Assembly (NCBI RefSeq): GCF_900109575.1
Contig: NZ_FOAF01000012.1
Span: 1-64,000, forward strand
Direction: 5' to 3'
DNA from: Olivibacter domesticus
GTDB lineage: Bacteria > Bacteroidota > Bacteroidia > Sphingobacteriales > Sphingobacteriaceae
DNA: 64,000 nucleotides
Position 1 is the stretch's first letter. Every line of letters starts with the position of its first letter. Below are positions 8,841 through 63,408 of this stretch, one piece after another. Position numbers and translations under genes: made by a program. The notes below the pieces were generated by a model. That model was not told where the DNA came from. It saw only the letters and a program-made list of their open reading frames with translations, and ran no database searches.

Positions 8841-10046
8841 TTAAAACACCTGCTTAATACTTTTGATTTTGAATTTAAAAATTATTAGCTCTTCTCCTCG
8901 CCTAATTAAGAGAGAAACTTCCTTCTTAGGCCGCTGCAGTGCTTTTTTATATTTTGCAAAATCCAGACTAAAGTCGCCGTTCACAGCTAGCAACAAATCA
9001 TCCTCCTTTAACCCTGCTAGCGCAGCGGGCGAACCTTCCGCAACTCCTCCAACCTCAATATTACCTTGGATAAGTTGCAGATCTAGTCCTGAATAAGCGT
9101 AGTCAAAACGATCCCTAAAACTGTTGTTAGGTGTGAGGTGGATATCTCCCTTGGCATAGTTATAAATAATGTTAAAACGTCTAAAAATATCATTACCAAT
9201 AAGCCCCCCTAAATAGGGGTATGATGTGACATCAAAAACATCATCAAATATTAAGGTGGGAACGTGTTTAAATTTATAAGGACCGAATTTTAGTTCTTTT
9301 ATTACGGTAAGGTCCATTTGAATTTTTCCGCCCAAACCATGCCCCTCTTTTGGCCAAAGTTTTCTATTCCACGCCAATAAACTACTATCCTCAACAAATT
9401 CCTTCGAAAGCATCACACAAACCCCTGCGCCAATGTCATGTAAAAACCGGGCATTAATCGGCCTTTTATCTTTTAGTGAAGCTCCGTGCACAACTAAACT
9501 TTTAATATTAGGTTTCAACAGAAAGCCTCCTTTTGGATATCGTATTGTACCCTTAGAGCAGATTTCTATGACACTTTCATCATAATTGATCTTTATGATA
9601 TATCTGCTAAAGAGAGAGTAACCGATAATGCCATCTACCCTAATGCCATATACACTGGATAAGAAAGAATAATCATTAATATGAAAATTTAAGCTGTCTA
9701 CCGTAAACGCTGGAAAATTAAGGTGCTGATTATAAAGAAAGCTAACCTGCTTAATGCCCGCTACCCCCCTTATTCTTACAGAAGTTGGCGTTGGGTCTAA
9801 CCCTAAGTATACAACTGTTGATGAATCGAGCGAAATGCCACCACTTCCTGTATCCAGAATAAAATTAAGAGAATCGATCTCATTGTTCAAAGTAGCCTGT
9901 ACAACTACTACTCCTCCTGTTAAGGTCTTAAACGGTAATTTACAGAGCACCTCTGATGGAGATGGCACAATTTCCTCTTGCGCAAATGTAGAATTGTGCG
10001 AAACTATCAAATAAGTTAAGCATACAAAAGCAAGGAAGATGCGCAT
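8841..10046 (-). CDS. Secreted retropepsin-like protein with C-terminal PDZ domain; second lobe DIG
   Basis: A 401-residue exported protein (signal peptide about 1-22, ending TFAQ). The first retropepsin-like lobe has LNFILDTGSGGISLD at about residue 64. In the second lobe the motif is FLHDIGAGVCVML at about residue 204, so Thr is replaced by Ile. A PDZ domain fills about 315-395, with VAEGSPAALAGLKEDDLL. It is a paralogue of the protein at 7222 on the same strand, 101 bases apart. The altered second motif may reduce or redirect activity. A small-RNA-like element ends about 56 bases upstream of the start and may share its promoter region. Confidence 0.8.
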   Translation of the reverse strand: MRIFLAFVCLTYLIVSHNSTFAQEEIVPSPSEVLCKLPFKTLTGGVVVVQATLNNEIDSLNFILDTGSGGISLDSSTVVYLGLDPTPTSVRIRGVAGIKQVSFLYNQHLNFPAFTVDSLNFHINDYSFLSSVYGIRVDGIIGYSLFSRYIIKINYDESVIEICSKGTIRYPKGGFLLKPNIKSLVVHGASLKDKRPINARFLHDIGAGVCVMLSKEFVEDSSLLAWNRKLWPKEGHGLGGKIQMDLTVIKELKFGPYKFKHVPTLIFDDVFDVTSYPYLGGLIGNDIFRRFNIIYNYAKGDIHLTPNNSFRDRFDYAYSGLDLQLIQGNIEVGGVAEGSPAALAGLKEDDLLLAVNGDFSLDFAKYKKALQRPKKEVSLLIRRGEELIIFKFKIKSIKQVF

Positions 10047-10101: not shown

Positions 10102-10168
10102 AAAAAAAACAGGCCAATAATCGGGGAGATTAGAGGCCTGTTTAACCAATTATAAACCTAAATTATGA
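10102..10168 (-). ncRNA. Small RNA-like element, copy 1 (conserved 5' segment plus terminator)
   Basis: Read on the minus strand: a promoter at 10174-10204, a 5' segment TAATTTAGGTTTATAATTGG (10165-10146), and then a hairpin. The hairpin arms are AAACAGGCC and GGCCTGTTT (10135-10143 with 10107-10115), with an inner TAATC/GATTA stem closed by the loop UCCCC. A run of eight T follows (10102-10109). The predicted transcript is about 67 nt with no open frame. The same 5' segment and hairpin logic recurs at 34591-34658 and 59422-59501. It may be an independent small RNA or an attenuator for the gene starting at 10046. Confidence 0.6.
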
Positions 10169-10173
10169 AAGCA

Positions 10174-10204
10174 CAAAATTAGCAATAAAAATTGAAAAAA
10201 CAAA
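10174..10204 (-). promoter_or_regulatory. Promoter of small RNA copy 1
   Basis: On the minus strand TTTG (10201-10204), then exactly 19 bases, then TAATTTTG (10174-10181). This is a perfect match to the Bacteroidota TTTG-N19-TAnnTTTG consensus. Confidence 0.7.
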
Positions 10205-21885: not shown

Positions 21886-23163
21886 ATGATAAATAAAATC
21901 TTTTCACTGGAACAAATTCGAGTTTTTAAGAATCTGTTAAGATGGACGGTGATTATTTTGCCTGTTTCCATTGTAATAGGAAGTATGGTTGCTTTTTTTT
22001 TATGGGCATTGAATCTTTCCATTCACTATCGTTTTGAGCATCCATGGCTCTTATATTTTTTACCTTTTGCTGGCCTACTTATTCATTTTTCTTACAAGCT
22101 TTATGGAAAAACTTCTGAAAAAGGCAACAACCTTATTCTGGATGAAATTCACACACCGGGAGGTGGAATACCGAAACGAATGGGGCCGCTTGTGCTGGTC
22201 AGTACTGTAATAACTCATTTGTTTGGGGGTTCAGCTGGCCGTGAAGGAACAGCTGTTCAGATTGGCGGCAGCATCGCTCACATGTTCAGTAAGTGGTTTA
22301 AGCTTGATACGAAAGAAACACGTATGCTATTAACAGCAGGCGTTGCCGCTGGTTTTGGTGCAGTATTCGGAACACCACTAACCGGTGCCATCTTTGCACT
22401 AGAGGTATTAACCATCGGACGCATACAGTATTTTGCCATATTCCCCTGTTTAATAGCGAGTCTAATAGGTGATCTCACTGTATCTGCCTGGCAGGTGCAT
22501 CACACCACCTATCGCATCGACACCTTCGACATACCTAACTACTTTGAAACCTATTTTTCGTTAAATATCCTGCTTTTGACAAAAGTTGTAATAGCTTCCA
22601 TCGCCTTTGGCTTGTCTAGTTTGCTGTTTGCACAAATGGCTCATCGCTTAAAAAAAATTTTCTTGAGCCTTTTTCGGAAAACCTGGATAATCCCTATAAT
22701 AGGAGGGACTATTATTATCATTTTAACGCTTGTTTTAGGAAAACCCGATTATCTAAGTTTAGGAGTAGATGCCGAATATCCTGGAGCAATCACCATCCCT
22801 TCGGCGTTTAAAGAAGGCGGATCCGACACCTGGAGCTGGCTATGGAAGACGATTTATACAAGTGTTACCTTGAGCAGTGGATTTAAGGGAGGTGAAGTAA
22901 CGCCATTATTTTATATTGGTGCCACGCTCGGAAACACGTTATCGTCTTTGCTAAATGCTCCAGTCGGACTTTTTGCAGCACTCGGGTTTATTGCGGTCTT
23001 TGCTGGTGCTACCAATACACCCTTGGCATGTACAATTATGGGTGTAGAACTATTTGGTGGGGAGTATTTGATTTATTTTGCCGTAGCATGTTATACCGCT
23101 TATTTCTTTAGCGGACATGCAGGGATTTATAGTGCACAGAAAATTTGGGCAAGGAAGGGATAG
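21886..23163 (+). CDS. CLC-F type fluoride/proton antiporter
   Basis: CLC-family membrane transporter, 425 residues, with about twelve hydrophobic segments. GGSAGREGTAVQIGG (about residues 114-128) carries the gating Glu at about 120. At about 80-83 it has GNNL where chloride CLCs have GSGIP; as I recall, an Asn or Met at this position marks the fluoride-specific CLC-F branch. The late GFKGGEVTPLFYIGATLGN motif is also present. It would export fluoride from the cytosol using the proton gradient. The fluoride riboswitch directly upstream independently supports this assignment. Automated annotation may call it a voltage-gated chloride channel. Confidence 0.93.
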   Translation: MINKIFSLEQIRVFKNLLRWTVIILPVSIVIGSMVAFFLWALNLSIHYRFEHPWLLYFLPFAGLLIHFSYKLYGKTSEKGNNLILDEIHTPGGGIPKRMGPLVLVSTVITHLFGGSAGREGTAVQIGGSIAHMFSKWFKLDTKETRMLLTAGVAAGFGAVFGTPLTGAIFALEVLTIGRIQYFAIFPCLIASLIGDLTVSAWQVHHTTYRIDTFDIPNYFETYFSLNILLLTKVVIASIAFGLSSLLFAQMAHRLKKIFLSLFRKTWIIPIIGGTIIIILTLVLGKPDYLSLGVDAEYPGAITIPSAFKEGGSDTWSWLWKTIYTSVTLSSGFKGGEVTPLFYIGATLGNTLSSLLNAPVGLFAALGFIAVFAGATNTPLACTIMGVELFGGEYLIYFAVACYTAYFFSGHAGIYSAQKIWARKG

Positions 23164-34590: not shown

Positions 34591-34658
34591 AAAAACGAAA
34601 GGTCTCCAATCGGGGAGATTGAAGACCTTTACTAACCAATTATAAACCTAAATTATGA
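34591..34658 (-). ncRNA. Small RNA-like element, copy 2
   Basis: On the minus strand: CTTG (34692-34695), a 20-base spacer, the -7 box TATCTTTG (34664-34671), then the segment TAATTTAGGTTTATAATTGG (34655-34636), identical to copy 1. The hairpin follows: arms AAAGGTCT and AGACCTTT (34623-34630 with 34598-34605), an inner AATC/GATT stem with the loop UCCCC, then CGTTTTT. The outer arms differ from copy 1 by compensating changes while loop and lead segment are kept, so structure is selected. The predicted length is about 68 nt. Confidence 0.6.
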
Positions 34659-34809
34659 TGATACAAAGATAAGTACCGGAAACGTTCCCTGCAAGTATTT
34701 TAGATGTTTTAACATATTTTAACATTCTTCAAATTTAGTGAAAATTGCCCTTCAAATTGGCTCCCAATGCTTTTTACGCATTAATAGCAGGGGCGAAAGA
34801 GCGTTCATT

Positions 34810-42855: not shown

Positions 42856-43809
42856 CTAATAATAAATTGTTTCATATCGACTTGACCCATCTTCATACAA
42901 ATCCAAAATGGAATAGGCTGGTGGAAAATCGTCCAACACGCCACCCCACCAATTACCCGAAACTGCACCACCACAATAATAGTTGACACCTAAATAATTG
43001 ACCGAATCAACATAATGCACGTGCCCACTTAAAGCAACTTTTACATTCGCACTTTCTTTCAACATCTTTTTAACCTCAATAACATCTACATGCTGGTCCC
43101 CTCCGGGGAAACCTAATTCCTTAGCTGGCTTACGCTGTGCGGCATACAGCAAGGGGGTGACAGAAATAATGGGCACATGTGAAAAGATTAACACGGGTGT
43201 TTCTTTCGGTGTTTCCGCCAACTGTTTCTTTAACCATTCAAGCTGCTCTTCTCCAAAAGTATAGCCACCCTTGTCAGCAATATAATGTATGCTATCTAAA
43301 GCAATAAATTTCCACCCTTTGAGATTAAAGGCATAATACTCATGAGGTAATTCCAATTTATTCTTCACCCAGGTTTTGCCATAAAGCGGATCCTGACTTG
43401 AAGCCGCATAGCCGGCATCTTCCTTTGAAATGTACCAAACATCATGATTACCTATACAGCTTTTCATAGGTAGCTGATTATGCTGTATGACTTCATCCCA
43501 TGCCGACCACAACTTACTTACTTTATCTTTTGGTTGATTGTTCATATCCATCAATGAATCGCCGGTATTTATAATAATGTCTGGCTTATCCTGCAAGGCA
43601 TTTACTTCCTTCAAAACTTTGGCAAAAGCTTCTTTTGGTGCTGGAGTATCTAATAAATGGATATCTGTTAAATGTGCGACCCGAACGAGGCGTTTTATAC
43701 CTTTATCGCCTTTTCCTATACTGAAGGCTTTTAGATTCGAAAATGCAAGTAATGAAGAAGCAGATAATAAGCTGGCCCCTTTTAAAAAATTTCTTCTGTT
43801 ATTATTCAT
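42856..43809 (-). CDS. Tat-exported metallophosphoesterase (second of a pair)
   Basis: A 317-residue exported phosphoesterase closely resembling the one at 25139. MNNNRRNFLKGASLL is a strong twin-arginine signal. Metal motifs: AHLTDIHLLDT (about 46-56), INTGDSLMDM (about 80-89), CIGNHDVWYI (about 117-126), IFSHVPIISV (about 209-218) and LSGHVHYVDS (about 257-266). It begins seven bases after the SusD-like gene ends, so it is part of the SusC/SusD operon and should act in the periplasm on material brought in by that pair. Confidence 0.92.
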   Translation of the reverse strand: MNNNRRNFLKGASLLSASSLLAFSNLKAFSIGKGDKGIKRLVRVAHLTDIHLLDTPAPKEAFAKVLKEVNALQDKPDIIINTGDSLMDMNNQPKDKVSKLWSAWDEVIQHNQLPMKSCIGNHDVWYISKEDAGYAASSQDPLYGKTWVKNKLELPHEYYAFNLKGWKFIALDSIHYIADKGGYTFGEEQLEWLKKQLAETPKETPVLIFSHVPIISVTPLLYAAQRKPAKELGFPGGDQHVDVIEVKKMLKESANVKVALSGHVHYVDSVNYLGVNYYCGGAVSGNWWGGVLDDFPPAYSILDLYEDGSSRYETIYY

Positions 43810-45338: not shown

Positions 45339-48300
45339 TTAAAAAGTAGCATTTAAGTTTACACCAAAACTCTTAACAGAAGGTGTTTGATAATCAGAGC
45401 TTGAACCTGTGAACTGATCAAGATCCATATTTTGTGTTCCTTTGCCAGTAAAATAAAAGAGATTCCTTCCCACTAGTGATATACTAGCCGTATTAAAGAG
45501 TTTTGTTCTTTGTAGCATACTTGCAGGTAAATTGTAGCTTAACACCACTTCACGTAGTTTCACAAAGGTTCTTTTCTTTGCTGCTATTGGCCCCGACTGA
45601 TAATAATTGGTTGCCCAACCCTGCCATAATACAGGTATATCATTTGGTGCAAACACGCGTGTATCGGCGATAATATTCCCATCCTGATCTGCGCTCAATT
45701 GCCCGCTTACAATTTTTAATCCGTCGGTCATCACACTCCCTTGATAATCTGCTACATCTCTATTTTGCCAGTCTTTTAAACGGTATTCATTGGCCGATTC
45801 GGGATGCGTACCCGAGCCCCACTGCTTCGCATCTTGTACATTGTTAATTAACCCTCCAAATCGACCATCAAACATAAAACTCAAGCTGAAGGTTTTATAC
45901 CGGAATGTATTATTCATGCTTATTGCCCAGTTATTGTCGGAGTGTCCTATTTTAGTCATATAAGGGTTATAAGCAGGCAAACCATTTGTTCCAACAATAA
46001 GCTTTCCCTGTTCATCTTTTTGAAAGTCCCGCACATAATAACTGTCCCATCGTTCACCTACATAGATATTTCCATAACGATTTTGTACACCATCTACTTC
46101 ATGCAACCAGGCATGATTGGTAGAGGCATTCAGCAAAACATTCCATGAAAAATTGGGACTTGAAATAGGGGTACCATCTATGCTAAGTTCCAGACCCTTT
46201 CTGAGTAAGGTTAAACCGTTGATCTGACGAGCACTTACGCCAGAAGTTACTGAGGTGGTAAGCTCGATAATGCTAGGCCCTTCCAGGTTTCGAAATACCG
46301 CAGCATCCAAGCCCAAACGTCCATCCAAAAAGCGCATTTCCAAACCTAATTCAAATGTTTTTACGCGTTCCGCCAACAAATCAGCGTTTGGAAGTACACC
46401 AGTATAGGCTACACCTGTATACGTATTATCCCAGCGGCCATAATTACTGTAAAAAGGAAGTAGTTTATAAATGTCGTACTGGGAATCTTCATCCACAAAA
46501 TCACTCGCCACATCTGCATAGGCTCCCCGTACCTTCATGGAAGAAATCACTTTAGGCAAAGTGACCATTTCGGAAACAACAGCACTTAGGGATGCTGAAG
46601 GATAAAAATATGTATTGTTTTTCAACGGCATGGTAGAAGACTTATCTACGCGCCCTGTTAAACTTAGGTACAACATACTCTTATAGTCTAAATCAACAAA
46701 GCCATACACACTACCTACCTGCCTTGACGCACGATCGTTTGTGGAAATAGTTGGCATAACCGAGTTACTTAGATCATAAACACCTGGTACTGTCAAACCC
46801 CTATCTGTTCGGGCAAATAATGATTTAACACCCACTGTTCGTAGGTTTCCATAAATCGATCCAGTAAATCCTATATTATCAAAGAAGCGGTCCTGGTATT
46901 TGAAAGAAGCTTCGGTATTATTTTCCCAAAAGGTATCGTAAGTTTCCTGATAACCTCCAACCCGACTGCCGCCAATCGTGTAACCATATAGATTAGCTGA
47001 TATAGGAATTTTTATAGTTCTGTTTCTATTCCACGTACTTACGCTGGTTCTGGCATTAAACGTTAGCTTATCCGACAACTTATAGTTCATCATCACATGG
47101 CCGTATACATCATCCTTATCGTAGGTTCTGAGGTTTTCATAGGCCGTCATCCAGGGATTATCATATATGGTATATTCCCTGTTAAACTGTTGTACATTTT
47201 CTTTTCCGGGTTGCCAATAATTTCTTAAATCATTGATATCATAATCTGCACCACCCCAAAGTGTCAGGATATAAATAGGACTGTGTGGCCCATAAGATAG
47301 GTTCGGATAATTTGGTGAATACTGTTTGTTATAGTTAATACTTGCATCAAATCGAAGCTTACTTCCCGCATTAATACCGCCCGTCAGATTCACATTTGTA
47401 CCGCCCAATTTCGTATTGGGCGTCGTACCTTTTTGAAACATTTGAGAAACAGAAAGTCTAAAATCTCCTTGCTCGCCTTTCGTAGAGATCGCAATATTGT
47501 TTGTACTAAGCAGCCCATTTTCAAGGAAATTCTTTAAATTATCCTTACCTCTCGCAATCCATGGCAGGGGAACAAGTTCTCCCGTTTCAGGGTCTGTGGG
47601 ACTATTGTATTGCGTAATTAATTGTCCTTCAAATCGGGGACCCCAGATGTTATAATCATTGTCGTTAATTCCCCCTCCTCTACCATCTTTAAATGCATAT
47701 TCGTAATTAGATCCCGGACCATATTCTGTTTGCATTTTCGGAATGGCATTATAGCCTGTTTGCAGTTGTGTGCTGGAATTGAACTCTACCTGAAAACCCT
47801 TATCGTTCGCTTTTGCTCGTTTTGTAGTAATCACAATGGCACCATTTTGACCTCTATTTCCGTATAGGGCAGCGGCATTTGCACCCTTAAGAACGGAGTA
47901 AGATTCAATGTCATCCGGACTTAAATTCCACGAATCCGTGTTAACGGGCATGCCATCTACCACAATAAGCACATTGCTTCGTCCTCTCAAGGTTATACCG
48001 GGGTCACCAAAGAGATTTGTGCTGGGTGTAATCGTCAACCCCGAAACCCGCCCTGCTAAATTTGAAATAGCACTTGGCTCCCTGGCTTTCACCAGATCAG
48101 GTCCTTTCACCTCTTGAATAGAGTAGCCAACAGCTTGCTTTTCTTTTTTAATGCCCAGCGCCGTGACGACTACCTCGTTAAGCCCTTGCTGGCTAGGAGC
48201 GAGTACTATCAATAGCTCTTGCTGCGTTCCTACTATTAAATCGTTGGCTTGATAACCAATAAACATAGCACGCAATGAATCTCCTTGTGTAACCTGTAAA

Positions 48301-48509
48301 CTAAACTTTCCACTTTGATCTGTGGAAGCAATTTTACCGCTGGTAACATTCCTAACGGTAACCCCAGGGATAGTTTCATTGGTCAATGAATCGGTGACTT
48401 TTCCACTTATTGTTTTGGTCTGGCCAAAAGAATAATGACAAAAGAGAATCATCAGCAGAAGGAACAATGCAGATGTCTTTTGTAAATGAGTTGGAGGTTG
48501 AACTAACAT
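45339..48509 (-). CDS. SusC/RagA family TonB-linked outer-membrane transporter (second pair)
   Basis: A 1056-residue outer-membrane TonB-dependent transporter. After a signal peptide (cleavage about FGQ at 30) comes a carboxypeptidase-regulatory-like domain (ISGKVTDSLTNETIPGVTVR). The TonB-box/SusC linker GLNEVVVTALGIKKEKQAVG (about 114-133), the plug with SNVLIVVDGMPVNTDSW and the barrel follow. The last residues (VNLNATF) end in Phe as expected. It pairs with the SusD-like protein downstream. The palindrome CAATCGATTG (48675-48684), similar to the centre of the LacI operator, lies 166 bases upstream. Confidence 0.94.
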   Translation of the reverse strand: MLVQPPTHLQKTSALFLLLMILFCHYSFGQTKTISGKVTDSLTNETIPGVTVRNVTSGKIASTDQSGKFSLQVTQGDSLRAMFIGYQANDLIVGTQQELLIVLAPSQQGLNEVVVTALGIKKEKQAVGYSIQEVKGPDLVKAREPSAISNLAGRVSGLTITPSTNLFGDPGITLRGRSNVLIVVDGMPVNTDSWNLSPDDIESYSVLKGANAAALYGNRGQNGAIVITTKRAKANDKGFQVEFNSSTQLQTGYNAIPKMQTEYGPGSNYEYAFKDGRGGGINDNDYNIWGPRFEGQLITQYNSPTDPETGELVPLPWIARGKDNLKNFLENGLLSTNNIAISTKGEQGDFRLSVSQMFQKGTTPNTKLGGTNVNLTGGINAGSKLRFDASINYNKQYSPNYPNLSYGPHSPIYILTLWGGADYDINDLRNYWQPGKENVQQFNREYTIYDNPWMTAYENLRTYDKDDVYGHVMMNYKLSDKLTFNARTSVSTWNRNRTIKIPISANLYGYTIGGSRVGGYQETYDTFWENNTEASFKYQDRFFDNIGFTGSIYGNLRTVGVKSLFARTDRGLTVPGVYDLSNSVMPTISTNDRASRQVGSVYGFVDLDYKSMLYLSLTGRVDKSSTMPLKNNTYFYPSASLSAVVSEMVTLPKVISSMKVRGAYADVASDFVDEDSQYDIYKLLPFYSNYGRWDNTYTGVAYTGVLPNADLLAERVKTFELGLEMRFLDGRLGLDAAVFRNLEGPSIIELTTSVTSGVSARQINGLTLLRKGLELSIDGTPISSPNFSWNVLLNASTNHAWLHEVDGVQNRYGNIYVGERWDSYYVRDFQKDEQGKLIVGTNGLPAYNPYMTKIGHSDNNWAISMNNTFRYKTFSLSFMFDGRFGGLINNVQDAKQWGSGTHPESANEYRLKDWQNRDVADYQGSVMTDGLKIVSGQLSADQDGNIIADTRVFAPNDIPVLWQGWATNYYQSGPIAAKKRTFVKLREVVLSYNLPASMLQRTKLFNTASISLVGRNLFYFTGKGTQNMDLDQFTGSSSDYQTPSVKSFGVNLNATF

Positions 48510-59407: not shown

Positions 59408-59415
59408 TACCTTTG
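59408..59415 (+). promoter_or_regulatory. -7 box of small RNA copy 3
   Basis: TACCTTTG, a perfect TAnnTTTG element. No clear TTTG is seen 19-20 bases upstream. Confidence 0.5.
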
Positions 59416-59421
59416 TTTCAT

Positions 59422-59501
59422 AGTTAAGTCTTCTCTTCTCATATATTAGGTTTTATAATTGGTTAGCTCAAAGTACCCGCCCATCGGGTACTTTGTTTTT
59501 T
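59422..59501 (+). ncRNA. Small RNA-like element, copy 3
   Basis: After the -7 box, the segment ATATTAGGTTTTATAATTGG (59441-59462 region) matches copies 1 and 2 with a few changes and is followed by TTAGCT. The 11-base stem CAAAGTACCCG/CGGGTACTTTG (59469-59479, 59485-59495) encloses the loop CCCAT, and seven T follow. The predicted length is about 80 nt. Unlike copies 1 and 2 it has no gene directly downstream on its strand, which favours a free RNA over a leader. Confidence 0.55.
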
Positions 59502-60483: not shown

Positions 60484-63321
60484 CTATAAGTCCCACCTTA
60501 TACCCGCCTGTCCACGCTGTCCATACCATTCATTCATGGTTGGCCGATACTGATCGCCTATATAGGTTCTCAAAGGTTCGTTGGTAAGATTGTTTAGTTC
60601 GAGGAATAATTTCAGGTGTTTATTGAGGTTTACAGTCGCCGATGCATCTATAGTGAAGTTGTCGTCAGTCCAGATGTAATAGCCTGGCCCAAGCGTATTA
60701 TCGATGGTTTCGATACTTTTACCTCTGAAATTACCTGCCAAACGAACCATTACGCCGTTTCTTTCATAATAAAGAATAGCATTGAAGAGATTTTTTGATT
60801 GGTTTGGCAGTGATATATTATCCATCACGATTACTTCCCCCTGCAAACGTGGAAGATCTGCGCTAGAATGGGTGTAAGTATAGTTAAACTCAACGCCAAA
60901 ACCACTCATAAATCCGCTGAAGAAATTGAACCTTTTGTTTATACCTCCTTCTAAACCAAAAATACTTGCAGACGCTAAATTTTTCGGTTGGGATAATAGG
61001 GTTTGTGTGCCATTCTCATTGGTAAGCGTACGATCGTTAAAGATTACATTCGTTAAATCCTTATAAAATACACCGCCGCTTAATATGCCTATATCTTCAA
61101 AATAATATTCGGCCATAAAATCAAGATTGTTCGAGAAAGTTGGCTTGAGTTTAGGGTTTCCCATACTGATAGAGACAATGGCTCCCGTAGCGTCTATACG
61201 CTCATTGGGTAATAAATCCGTAAAATTAGCTCTTGAAAATGTACGGGTATAAGCGGCACGAAGATTCAATTTGTTATGTGGACTGTATTTAAAATGTAGC
61301 ATTGGCAATAATGCATTATAATCGCTGTTAGCCGTTACAGGTTCAACCACACTTCCTTCAGCGGTAGTGCGTACGCGATTGCTATTGATATCGAGTGAAG
61401 TATGTTCATTACGTAACCCACCAATAACTTTTAATTGTGGTGTTAAGTCGTATTCTCCCATAATGTATGCAGCCCACACGTTTTCTCTACCGTGGTAAAT
61501 GGTTGCTTGATTATTCGCAGACGAAGCGTCTCTGAAGCCATTGGCTGCCAGCACAGCGGGATCATACAAATCAAACAATTGCTGCTTGGTCAACGGATTG
61601 ATGATATAGGCGCTTTGGTTGTTGGGTAGTTGGCTGAAGAAATTATCACGGTTAGGAAAATTCTCTGTTTGCAAAGAGCTTAACGTAATAGCCGGTTTGC
61701 TACCATCTGGAACTTGTACCAGCTGCGCACTGTTGATACCTCGTTTACTTTTGCTTCGATATTTGACACCAGCTTTCAATTTCAGCCGATCGCTTGTTTG
61801 ATGCGTAACATTTAGCTGCCCCACCTGATCATTTTCCCGGTTATTCAATTGAAGGATAGAAAGGGAAGACAGCGTCAATTGATTTGGGTTAATAGTTTCG
61901 GCAGCATTGTTTGGCTGTGCCGTGATATATAGCGGATCTTGACCAATGCCGTCTGGTGAATCTTGCAATAAATACTTTTTGCCATCAGCTGATAAGCCTG
62001 ACAGACCGCCTGGTATCGGTTGTATAAAAGTAGCAATGGGCAATCCACGCCTATCTTCTGAGGTTGTAGGGGGAGTATTAATGGCAAATTCTGAGGTAAA
62101 ATTACTATAGGCCCAATGAAATTGCGTTTTATTATTAAGCTGATGCTCTCCTCCAATTTCTCCACCATTTAACGTTGTTTCATAATGGGAATATCGGTAG
62201 TTATATTGGTAGCGGCTGCGAGCAAAATCAACGTACGACTCATAAACGGGACGTACGTCATCAAATTTATTCACCATCCCTCGCCCAAATAAACGGTGAC
62301 TTTCATTAAATTTCCATTCTAACCCCAAATTCAAACCGACGGTTTTGCGTTTACCCATATAACGCTTAAGCATCATATTATTGATAGATCGGTCTTGCGC
62401 ATAGCTAAGATCGTATGAATCTGCGCCCCAATTCCGATCCCAAATAGCTCCGGTGAGCATAACACCCAACTTGTCCTTTAAAAATCGATCGCCATAATTG
62501 ATGGAACCATTATAGGTGGCATTTTTGGAGATGGTGTTATAGCCCCCTGCCAAGCTCGCTCCTAACTGTCTCTGATTGGGTGCTGTACGTGTTATAAAGT
62601 TAATACTTCCGCCAATAGCATCTCCTTCTATATCGGGCGTAATCGCTTTTGCTACTTGTACATATTGTATCATCTCGGAAGGCACTACATCTAATACCGT
62701 GGCACGAGTTCCATAAACGCTGGAGCTCGGGAGCCTGCTTCCGTTGAGGAGAGTGGATGTCCACGCGAAAGGTGTACCCCGCACGGTAGCTTGATCGGCT
62801 TCTCCGTGATAGCGGGCTACAGCGACCCCCTGTACACGCTGAACGGCTTCTGCTGCATTTCGATCTGGTAGTTTTCCAATAGCATCTGAAGCGATCACAT
62901 TCATGATCGATGTGGCATTTTTCTGAATAGCATAGGCACGCCGTTGAGAGGGTAGAAAAGTACCATTAATAACGACTTCATTGAGTTTACCTTCTGCAGG
63001 TTCCAGCAAAATGGTAGCTAAATCGTTTATACCATCATGAAGCTGAATGCGAATTTTTCGCTCTTGCATACCGATATAATTAGTAATAAGGGTAACGCTA
63101 TCCCCTACTTTGGTTCCTTGCAATCTAAATTCACCGTTTAGGTTAGTGGAAGTGCGATTACCATTCTCTTTAACCAAGAGGGATACACCTGGTAGCTTAC
63201 CGGACTGCTCCGCTACTGTTCCTCTAATAACTTGTGCATCGGATTGTTTACCGTAGGAGCATAGGATATACAAGAAAATTAACTTACTAAACTTGTGCAC
63301 AAAGGTTTTGAGTTGTTTCAT
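60484..63321 (-). CDS. TonB-dependent receptor
   Basis: An outer-membrane receptor of about 945 residues from ATG 63321 (MKQLKTFVHKF); the frame opens further upstream at 63369 without a better signal peptide. A carboxypeptidase-regulatory-like domain (VIRGTVAEQSGKLPGVSLLV) is followed by the plug with GKLPDRNAAEAVQRVQGVAV (about 148-167) and a 22-stranded barrel ending in GIRWDL. The GKLPDxNAAEAxQRxxGV motif marks the TonB receptors of the siderophore/xylan-oligosaccharide type rather than SusC. Its transcript probably continues into the phosphatase gene. Confidence 0.92.
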   Translation of the reverse strand: MKQLKTFVHKFSKLIFLYILCSYGKQSDAQVIRGTVAEQSGKLPGVSLLVKENGNRTSTNLNGEFRLQGTKVGDSVTLITNYIGMQERKIRIQLHDGINDLATILLEPAEGKLNEVVINGTFLPSQRRAYAIQKNATSIMNVIASDAIGKLPDRNAAEAVQRVQGVAVARYHGEADQATVRGTPFAWTSTLLNGSRLPSSSVYGTRATVLDVVPSEMIQYVQVAKAITPDIEGDAIGGSINFITRTAPNQRQLGASLAGGYNTISKNATYNGSINYGDRFLKDKLGVMLTGAIWDRNWGADSYDLSYAQDRSINNMMLKRYMGKRKTVGLNLGLEWKFNESHRLFGRGMVNKFDDVRPVYESYVDFARSRYQYNYRYSHYETTLNGGEIGGEHQLNNKTQFHWAYSNFTSEFAINTPPTTSEDRRGLPIATFIQPIPGGLSGLSADGKKYLLQDSPDGIGQDPLYITAQPNNAAETINPNQLTLSSLSILQLNNRENDQVGQLNVTHQTSDRLKLKAGVKYRSKSKRGINSAQLVQVPDGSKPAITLSSLQTENFPNRDNFFSQLPNNQSAYIINPLTKQQLFDLYDPAVLAANGFRDASSANNQATIYHGRENVWAAYIMGEYDLTPQLKVIGGLRNEHTSLDINSNRVRTTAEGSVVEPVTANSDYNALLPMLHFKYSPHNKLNLRAAYTRTFSRANFTDLLPNERIDATGAIVSISMGNPKLKPTFSNNLDFMAEYYFEDIGILSGGVFYKDLTNVIFNDRTLTNENGTQTLLSQPKNLASASIFGLEGGINKRFNFFSGFMSGFGVEFNYTYTHSSADLPRLQGEVIVMDNISLPNQSKNLFNAILYYERNGVMVRLAGNFRGKSIETIDNTLGPGYYIWTDDNFTIDASATVNLNKHLKLFLELNNLTNEPLRTYIGDQYRPTMNEWYGQRGQAGIRWDL

Positions 63322-63408
63322 TTTTTTGTTTGCATTTTTTTGTTGCAAAACTGTATTTCTGAAAATCAACTATCGACCGTGTGAAGGAAGAGCTACGCGC
63401 ATACGTAT

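Follow-up and report, generated by a model that had tools for sequence, protein, structure and literature searches.

A multicopy family of putative small RNAs in Olivibacter domesticus and other Sphingobacteriaceae with a predicted seed for susC translation starts

The genome of Olivibacter domesticus contains a multicopy family of intergenic elements in which a conserved lead is followed by a terminator hairpin. We consider it probable, at about 70%, that these elements are genes of trans-acting small RNAs (sRNAs) whose common lead is a seed that pairs with the starts of susC genes and represses many uptake operons together. This reading is carried by the copy number and distribution of the family, the covariation of its fold, the spacing of its promoter boxes, its intergenic position and an excess of complementarity to susC starts. 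In the mechanism that we propose, an sRNA of about 65-80 nt, encoded in some two dozen copies, would consist of a largely unpaired 5' lead of 26 nt and a 3' intrinsic terminator hairpin. The mRNAs of SusC-type TonB-dependent transporters would be bound by the lead at their translation-initiation regions, in most cases over the start codon, which would keep ribosomes from loading and turn down many uptake operons jointly. As nutrient gates, SusC-type transporters have a central place in Bacteroidota, and within the literature searched a seed-based sRNA control of SusC has been described for Bacteroides. If true, a Sphingobacteriaceae counterpart with a different, equally matched seed would extend global sRNA control of SusC beyond gut species, and such control need not depend on RbpB.

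Copies in the window and in related genomes

In the window, by which we mean the whole 64,000-nt stretch of O. domesticus DNA that was analysed, the first-pass annotation had described the same design at 10.1, 34.6 and 59.4 kb, namely a TAnnTTTG box, a near-identical lead and hairpins of differing sequence, with an exact TTTG-N19-box promoter at copy 1. All of these parts were recovered (Table 1). Allowing up to three mismatches, the window contains three occurrences of the 21-mer ATTTAGGTTTATAATTGGTTA, compared with 0.02 expected from shuffles. The sigma-A box has been described to span positions -12 to -5 (PMC9723704). Its placement therefore predicts a transcription start at the first lead bases of copies 1 and 2, for copy 1 about 5 nt past the -7 box. 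The box of copy 3 lies 36 nt before the 14-nt core TTTATAATTGGTTA, compared with 17 nt in the other two copies, and therefore a longer 5' end is predicted for this copy.

Table 1. Positions of the three copies and their parts in the window.
Copy	Feature	Position	Strand	Remarks
1	whole element	about 10102-10168	-	
1	-33 element TTTG	10201-10204	-	19 nt before the -7 box
1	-7 box TAATTTTG	10174-10181	-	exact TTTG-N19-TAATTTTG
1	conserved 5' lead TCATAATTTAGGTTTATAATTGGTTAA	10142-10168	-	proposed seed
1	terminator hairpin	10107-10143	-	apical loop TCCCC; runs into T tract 10102-10109
2	whole element	about 34591-34658	-	
2	-33 element TTGC	34691-34694	-	TTGC-N19-TATCTTTG
2	-7 box TATCTTTG	34664-34671	-	
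2	conserved 5' lead	34632-34658	-	proposed seed
2	terminator hairpin	34598-34630	-	apical loop TCCCC; T tract at about 34591-34595
3	whole element	about 59439-59501	+	
3	-7 box TACCTTTG	59408-59415	+	further upstream than in copies 1 and 2
3	lead variant TCATATATTAGGTTTTATAATTGGTTAG	59439-59466	+	preceded by TCTTCTCTTC
3	terminator hairpin, class II	59469-59495	+	loop CCCAT; T tract 59496-59501

Apart from a tRNA and a fluoride riboswitch, nothing in the whole window matched Rfam at gathering scores. No Rfam match with an E-value up to 1 was found at copy 1, and copy 2 gave only three sub-threshold matches (E 0.82 to 4.2). The earlier statement that no named family has this sequence stands as far as the Rfam models are concerned, but in layout and in predicted mode of action the elements come close to the FopS family described below. 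The fluoride riboswitch aptamer (RF01734; 21767-21832, plus strand) is located just 5' of an ORF at 21886.

The 14-nt core was found in 20 exact copies in the 6.78-Mb genome. We built a covariance model (R1, from alignment A1) from 19 of them; the remaining one (L002), which has no adjacent hairpin, was left out of the alignment and of the later counts as a doubtful copy. A broader model (R2) gave 24 matches with E < 1e-4 in the same genome and 26 with E up to 0.0117. Among 27 sites with one mismatch to the core, the ten that were inspected (L021-L030) look like chance, and three other one-mismatch sites are members according to the model (C10:1408644, C10:2018107 and C17:3793). Copies in related genomes, to which the first-pass annotation had tied its proposal, were recovered by R1. 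Among the 60 relatives searched, 29 of the 37 genomes from the same family had between 1 and 23 matches (weak in G008, G017 and G024), and none of the 23 genomes from other families had any. In a sample of 395 genomes of the class, R2 matched all 15 same-family genomes, five of them, from genus g14, weakly (37-46 bits); outside the family 5 of 380 genomes gave weak matches of 37-44 bits, which on inspection may or may not be members. Carriers of the exact lead among the matches listed included Sphingobacterium, Mucilaginibacter, Parapedobacter, Olivibacter, Arcticibacter and Pedobacter. Where loci were retrieved with the exact lead, the query itself biases the apparent conservation of the lead; searching the relatives with the model avoids this bias and also recovered copies with partly different leads. 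A divergent variant was seen in genus g14 (L360, L361, L363, L364 and L114), with a lead like TCATAACAGGTTTATATTTGGTTAG, preceded by GACAAAGCCTGGC in L360, L361 and L114, and a loop that is not C-rich. In the open-access literature searched by topic we found no account of this family.

Copies 1 and 2 have the same apical loop on different outer stems, from which a conserved RNA structure had been proposed. The common loop was confirmed, and the hairpin of the whole family covaries. In an alignment of 100 distinct sequences, which was fitted to the covariance model, 98.7% of the cells pair and the covariation score was reached by none of 500 shuffles. Two-sided changes were found in all 8 modelled pairs, a measure that 42 of the 500 shuffles also reached. 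Moreover, all 103 sequences, folded one at a time, formed a hairpin with at least 11 facing complementary bases, and in the predicted single-sequence folds the lead is mostly unpaired and followed by the terminator hairpin. The main apical loops were TCCCC (52/103) and CCCAT (39/103). According to the loop, the 164 distinct copies within three substitutions of the lead were divided into 89 class I copies, 66 class II copies and 9 others.

Complementarity of the lead to susC starts

Read as its reverse complement, the lead resembles a start region with ATGA at its end. The O. domesticus genome contains at least 56 SusC genes (TIGR04056), and 56 were scored from -40 to +15 of the furthest in-frame ATG, a rule-set start that may be wrong in some genes. 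The predicted pairing with the lead was on average -12.2 kcal/mol at the 56 susC starts, which are paralogous and hence not independent, compared with -8.6 kcal/mol at 82 control ORFs, a mixture from the fetched stretches and the window (Mann-Whitney P 2e-9). None of 300 dinucleotide-shuffled leads reached this difference. A value of -12 kcal/mol was reached by 26 of 56 susC starts and 11 of 82 controls; the other 30 susC starts fall short of it. All 26 susC sites below -12 kcal/mol overlap the region from -20 to +3 of the start codon. Besides, 6-mers complementary to the lead (TAACCA, TTATGA, ATAAAC, AACCAA and ACCTAA) were among the most enriched in susC starts.

C-rich loops had also been brought forward as possible partners of G-rich start regions. 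This suggestion failed for susC, as GGGG was present in 1 of 56 and GGGGA in none of the 56 starts. Taken as a candidate seed, the loop paired no better with susC starts (mean -2.8 kcal/mol) than with the 82 controls (-3.4 kcal/mol). The seed is likely the lead rather than the C-rich loop. In LhrC the pairing motifs are C-rich, and the family described here differs in that susC starts offer almost no G-rich partner to its C-rich loop. LhrC is an sRNA of Listeria that is present in several copies per genome and regulates a surface adhesin (PMC4132741).

A similar arrangement has been described for FopS of Bacteroides thetaiotaomicron, a family of 14 sRNAs whose 5' seed pairs near the start codon and represses susC translation; for FopS-10 this mechanism was reported from experiments (PMC11697453). 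In the main text of that paper the term 'Sphingobacter' is absent. Both families have TAnnTTTG promoters (here class I, 64/89, but not class II, 0/66), an unpaired 5' seed followed by a terminator hairpin, which is predicted in our case, and a seed with complementarity to susC translation-initiation regions, calculated in silico here. The blocks TCATA, TTAG and GGTTA are common to both leads. However, sequence and spacing of the seed differ, and FopS does not share the C-rich apical loops, the promoter palindrome or the class II copies behind tRNA-like RNAs. The number of paralogues per genome is 12-15 for FopS in Bacteroides (RF04319; PMC11697453) and about 24 here. The host families within Bacteroidota are different, and the FopS lead was found in none of the 15 same-family genomes of the class sample.

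Membership in FopS was rejected, since the best score of the RF04319 model in the O. domesticus genome was 23.5 bits (E 0.8) against a gathering score of 56. None of its 8 weak matches in this genome lies at a copy, and the true FopS loci used as control (L117, L124 and L125) pass. The similarity of the class I lead to the FopS consensus was not significant, with 400 of 2000 shuffled pairs aligning as well; for the lead of copy 3, which was chosen afterwards as the closest-looking one, 4 of 2000 shuffled pairs were as good. No RRM_1 protein (PF00076) was found in the O. domesticus genome with E up to 0.001, whereas the control Bacteroides ihuae has one, and 18 of 41 genomes of the family encode an RRM protein. 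Therefore, RbpB is unlikely to be a general requirement. On the basis of layout and predicted pairing, we suggest that the family resembles FopS in the way it would work, and we do not class it as a FopS member.

We compared the leads of both lineages on 40 susC starts each (fetched of 49 scored matches) from G019, a second same-family genome, and from G108, a FopS-bearing genome of another family. At the susC starts of O. domesticus, the own lead reached -12.2 kcal/mol and the FopS lead -9.7 kcal/mol (P 9e-5). Similar results were obtained for G019 with -11.2 kcal/mol for the Sphingobacteriaceae lead and -9.0 kcal/mol for the FopS lead (P 2e-4). In G108 the order was reversed, with -12.4 kcal/mol for the FopS lead and -9.9 kcal/mol for the Sphingobacteriaceae lead (P 4e-4). 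In each genome the lead of the own lineage was better than 200 of 200 shuffles. For non-cognate leads the z-scores lay between -2.8 and -2.9, and 1 shuffle in 200 was equally low. Since these leads also beat shuffles, part of the pairing signal is a general property of susC start regions. If the proposed pairing is real, the two leads would offer a natural compensatory-mutation experiment between lineages.

DonS-type sRNAs are cis-encoded antisense RNAs that repress Bacteroides polysaccharide utilisation loci and are encoded opposite their own target. In contrast, the copies described here are intergenic: among 19 copies of the O. domesticus genome that were examined, none overlaps an ORF of at least 90 amino acids by more than 30 nt, and all 19 are not antisense to an ORF. 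GibS of B. thetaiotaomicron carries the R1 seed and acts at translation starts like FopS, but it differs by a second seed (R2) and a non-canonical promoter and is not described as multicopy in the account given there (PMC11697453).

Promoters, tRNA-like RNAs and viral contigs

In the 64 class I copies with a promoter box, the distance from TAnnTTTG to TTTAGG is 6-16 nt, and 61 of these copies have exactly 11 nt; in shuffled upstream sequence such a box is expected at a rate of 1.3%. These copies would be transcribed from their own housekeeping promoters and start at the lead. Among the 66 class II copies, all without a near box, 13 have a box further off and 28 are preceded by a T-arm sequence. 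Moreover, the sequence CTTTTC or CTTCTC recurs before the lead in copies of class II and in viral ones. We propose that class II and phage copies are either processed out of longer transcripts, behind tRNA-like RNAs or phage genes, or have a start site further 5'.

Immediately before class II copies we observed a tRNA-Leu-like RNA with the loop UUGUCUC in an odd anticodon arm and an insert of about 40 nt in the variable region. Five such units stand in tandem in Pedobacter sp. SYSU D00535 (L258:3983-5613), with a class II copy after each, and tRNA-like RNAs also precede class II copies in L105, L107, L108, L111, L174, L187 and L213. ARAGORN called no tRNA in L104-L112. The Rfam tRNA model scored 33.1 bits in L258 (gathering score 29) and matched nothing at gathering score in L105, L106, L109 and L111. 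The position of these copies suggests that the sRNA may be released by processing of longer transcripts.

The exact 20-nt lead was also present in 37 IMG/VR contigs (L392-L428), some of which may include host DNA, and a hairpin followed in all 37. A near promoter box was found in 1 of these viral copies, a preceding T-arm in 8 and CCC in or beside the apical loop in 23. Two contigs were annotated (10 proteins); both carry terminase and portal genes, and L405 an integrase gene. At least one tRNA gene was found in 10 of 16 viral loci scanned. A part of L421 aligns to genome G545 at 90%, and the flank of L398 is shared with the Sphingobacterium mizutaii locus L157. Therefore, the viral hosts include members of the same family. 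In BLAST searches against named phages L421 gave no match and L405 short terminase matches; copy 2 (96 bases) gave no match to named phages and plasmids. The FopS lead was found exactly in 24 IMG/VR contigs, five of which have one identical following sequence without an evident terminator hairpin, and a phage is mentioned in the FopS paper itself (PMC11697453).

The T-arms before class II and viral copies, the lack of a near promoter box in the other 36 viral copies and likewise in the T-arm-linked ones, and the recurring sequence before the lead all speak for a 3'-end element, i.e. a conserved processing or stabilising leader plus terminator of many transcripts that has no seed function. Nevertheless, we consider this unlikely, as the near-fixed spacing of the class I boxes puts the start at the lead and the lineage-matched complementarity to susC would be left unexplained. 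The orientation of neighbouring genes argues in the same direction. The upstream gene, where identified (18 copies in O. domesticus), is on the same strand in 11 cases and on the opposite strand in 7, so that the suspicion that the copies might all be mere terminators of upstream genes did not hold. The first-pass reading as a repeated small-RNA-like family is borne out by the fixed-spacing boxes, the covarying hairpin, the copies in related genomes and the intergenic positions.

For the viral copies, the sRNA reading leads to a wider proposal, which we offer tentatively and hold to be rather unlikely. Each Bacteroidota lineage might keep a multicopy anti-SusC sRNA whose seed co-evolves with the consensus of its susC starts, and the transcripts of its temperate phages might have this seed at their 3' ends and thereby turn down the SusC-type outer-membrane transporters of the host, which are possible phage receptors, during infection or lysogeny. 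The phage contigs with the same seed raise the testable question of why it is carried.

Other targets, neighbouring genes and the promoter palindrome

The best-pairing start of the window belongs to a metallophosphoesterase gene (42856-43809; -19.7 kcal/mol), and the aspartyl-protease/PDZ gene directly after copy 1 (8841-10046, minus strand, start at 10046) pairs with the lead at -17.4 kcal/mol; neither is a SusC gene. Two TonB-receptor genes of the window, which fall outside the 56 SusC matches, pair weakly (45339-48509, -5.4; 60484-63369, with an uncertain TTG start, -3.9 kcal/mol). The strong pairers in the window count against a reading in which SusC genes are the only targets. They would also fit a true sRNA whose main targets are genes other than susC, reached either by the lead itself or by way of a protein with affinity for lead and C-rich loop. 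In both classes, and in the viral copies mentioned above, CCC is repeatedly found within or next to the apical loop, and the target sets compared were SusC genes and mixed controls only. However, the enrichment at susC starts over shuffled leads, the exchange of leads between lineages and the near absence of G-rich loop sites in susC starts make this quite unlikely.

Copies 1 and 2 are each followed, about 30-50 nt past the terminator region, by the start of a gene in the same orientation, an aspartyl-protease/PDZ gene and a histidine kinase gene, respectively. Together with the good pairing at the start of the former, this would be consistent with a cis-acting leader or attenuator of the downstream gene. 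We regard this as very improbable, because just 9 of 19 O. domesticus copies are followed by a gene of the same orientation (the other 10 by one on the opposite strand), these 9 genes are dissimilar by eye (annotation covering those of the window), and copy 3 and its downstream gene are convergent. Taken over the whole family, the orientations of the neighbouring genes thus disfavour the cis-leader as well as the terminator-only reading. A selfish, REP-like mobile hairpin without cellular function would account for many copies, viral contigs included, but has a negligible probability, as box spacing, lead and fold are kept while the stems turn over by compensatory change.

Returning to the sRNA reading, a palindrome similar to AGTGTA-N4-6-TACACT (up to two substitutions) was found in class I (43/89 copies) and in class II (13/66 copies; raw counts without a chance rate). 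In the O. domesticus genome, 8 of 12 sites with the palindrome-plus-box pattern are at sRNA promoters, and the reversed pattern gave 2 matches. With the palindrome at about half of the class I copies, these might be governed by one shared transcription factor, which would respond to an inducing signal. The form AGTGTA-N5-TACACT overlaps sRNA promoters at G000:C10:1187384-1187407 and seven similar sites, and it was seen in other genera too. A palindrome site without an sRNA (G000:C12:288316-288339) lies directly 5' of a susC gene (match 284995-288135, minus strand), hinting that the factor may also act directly on a transporter gene.
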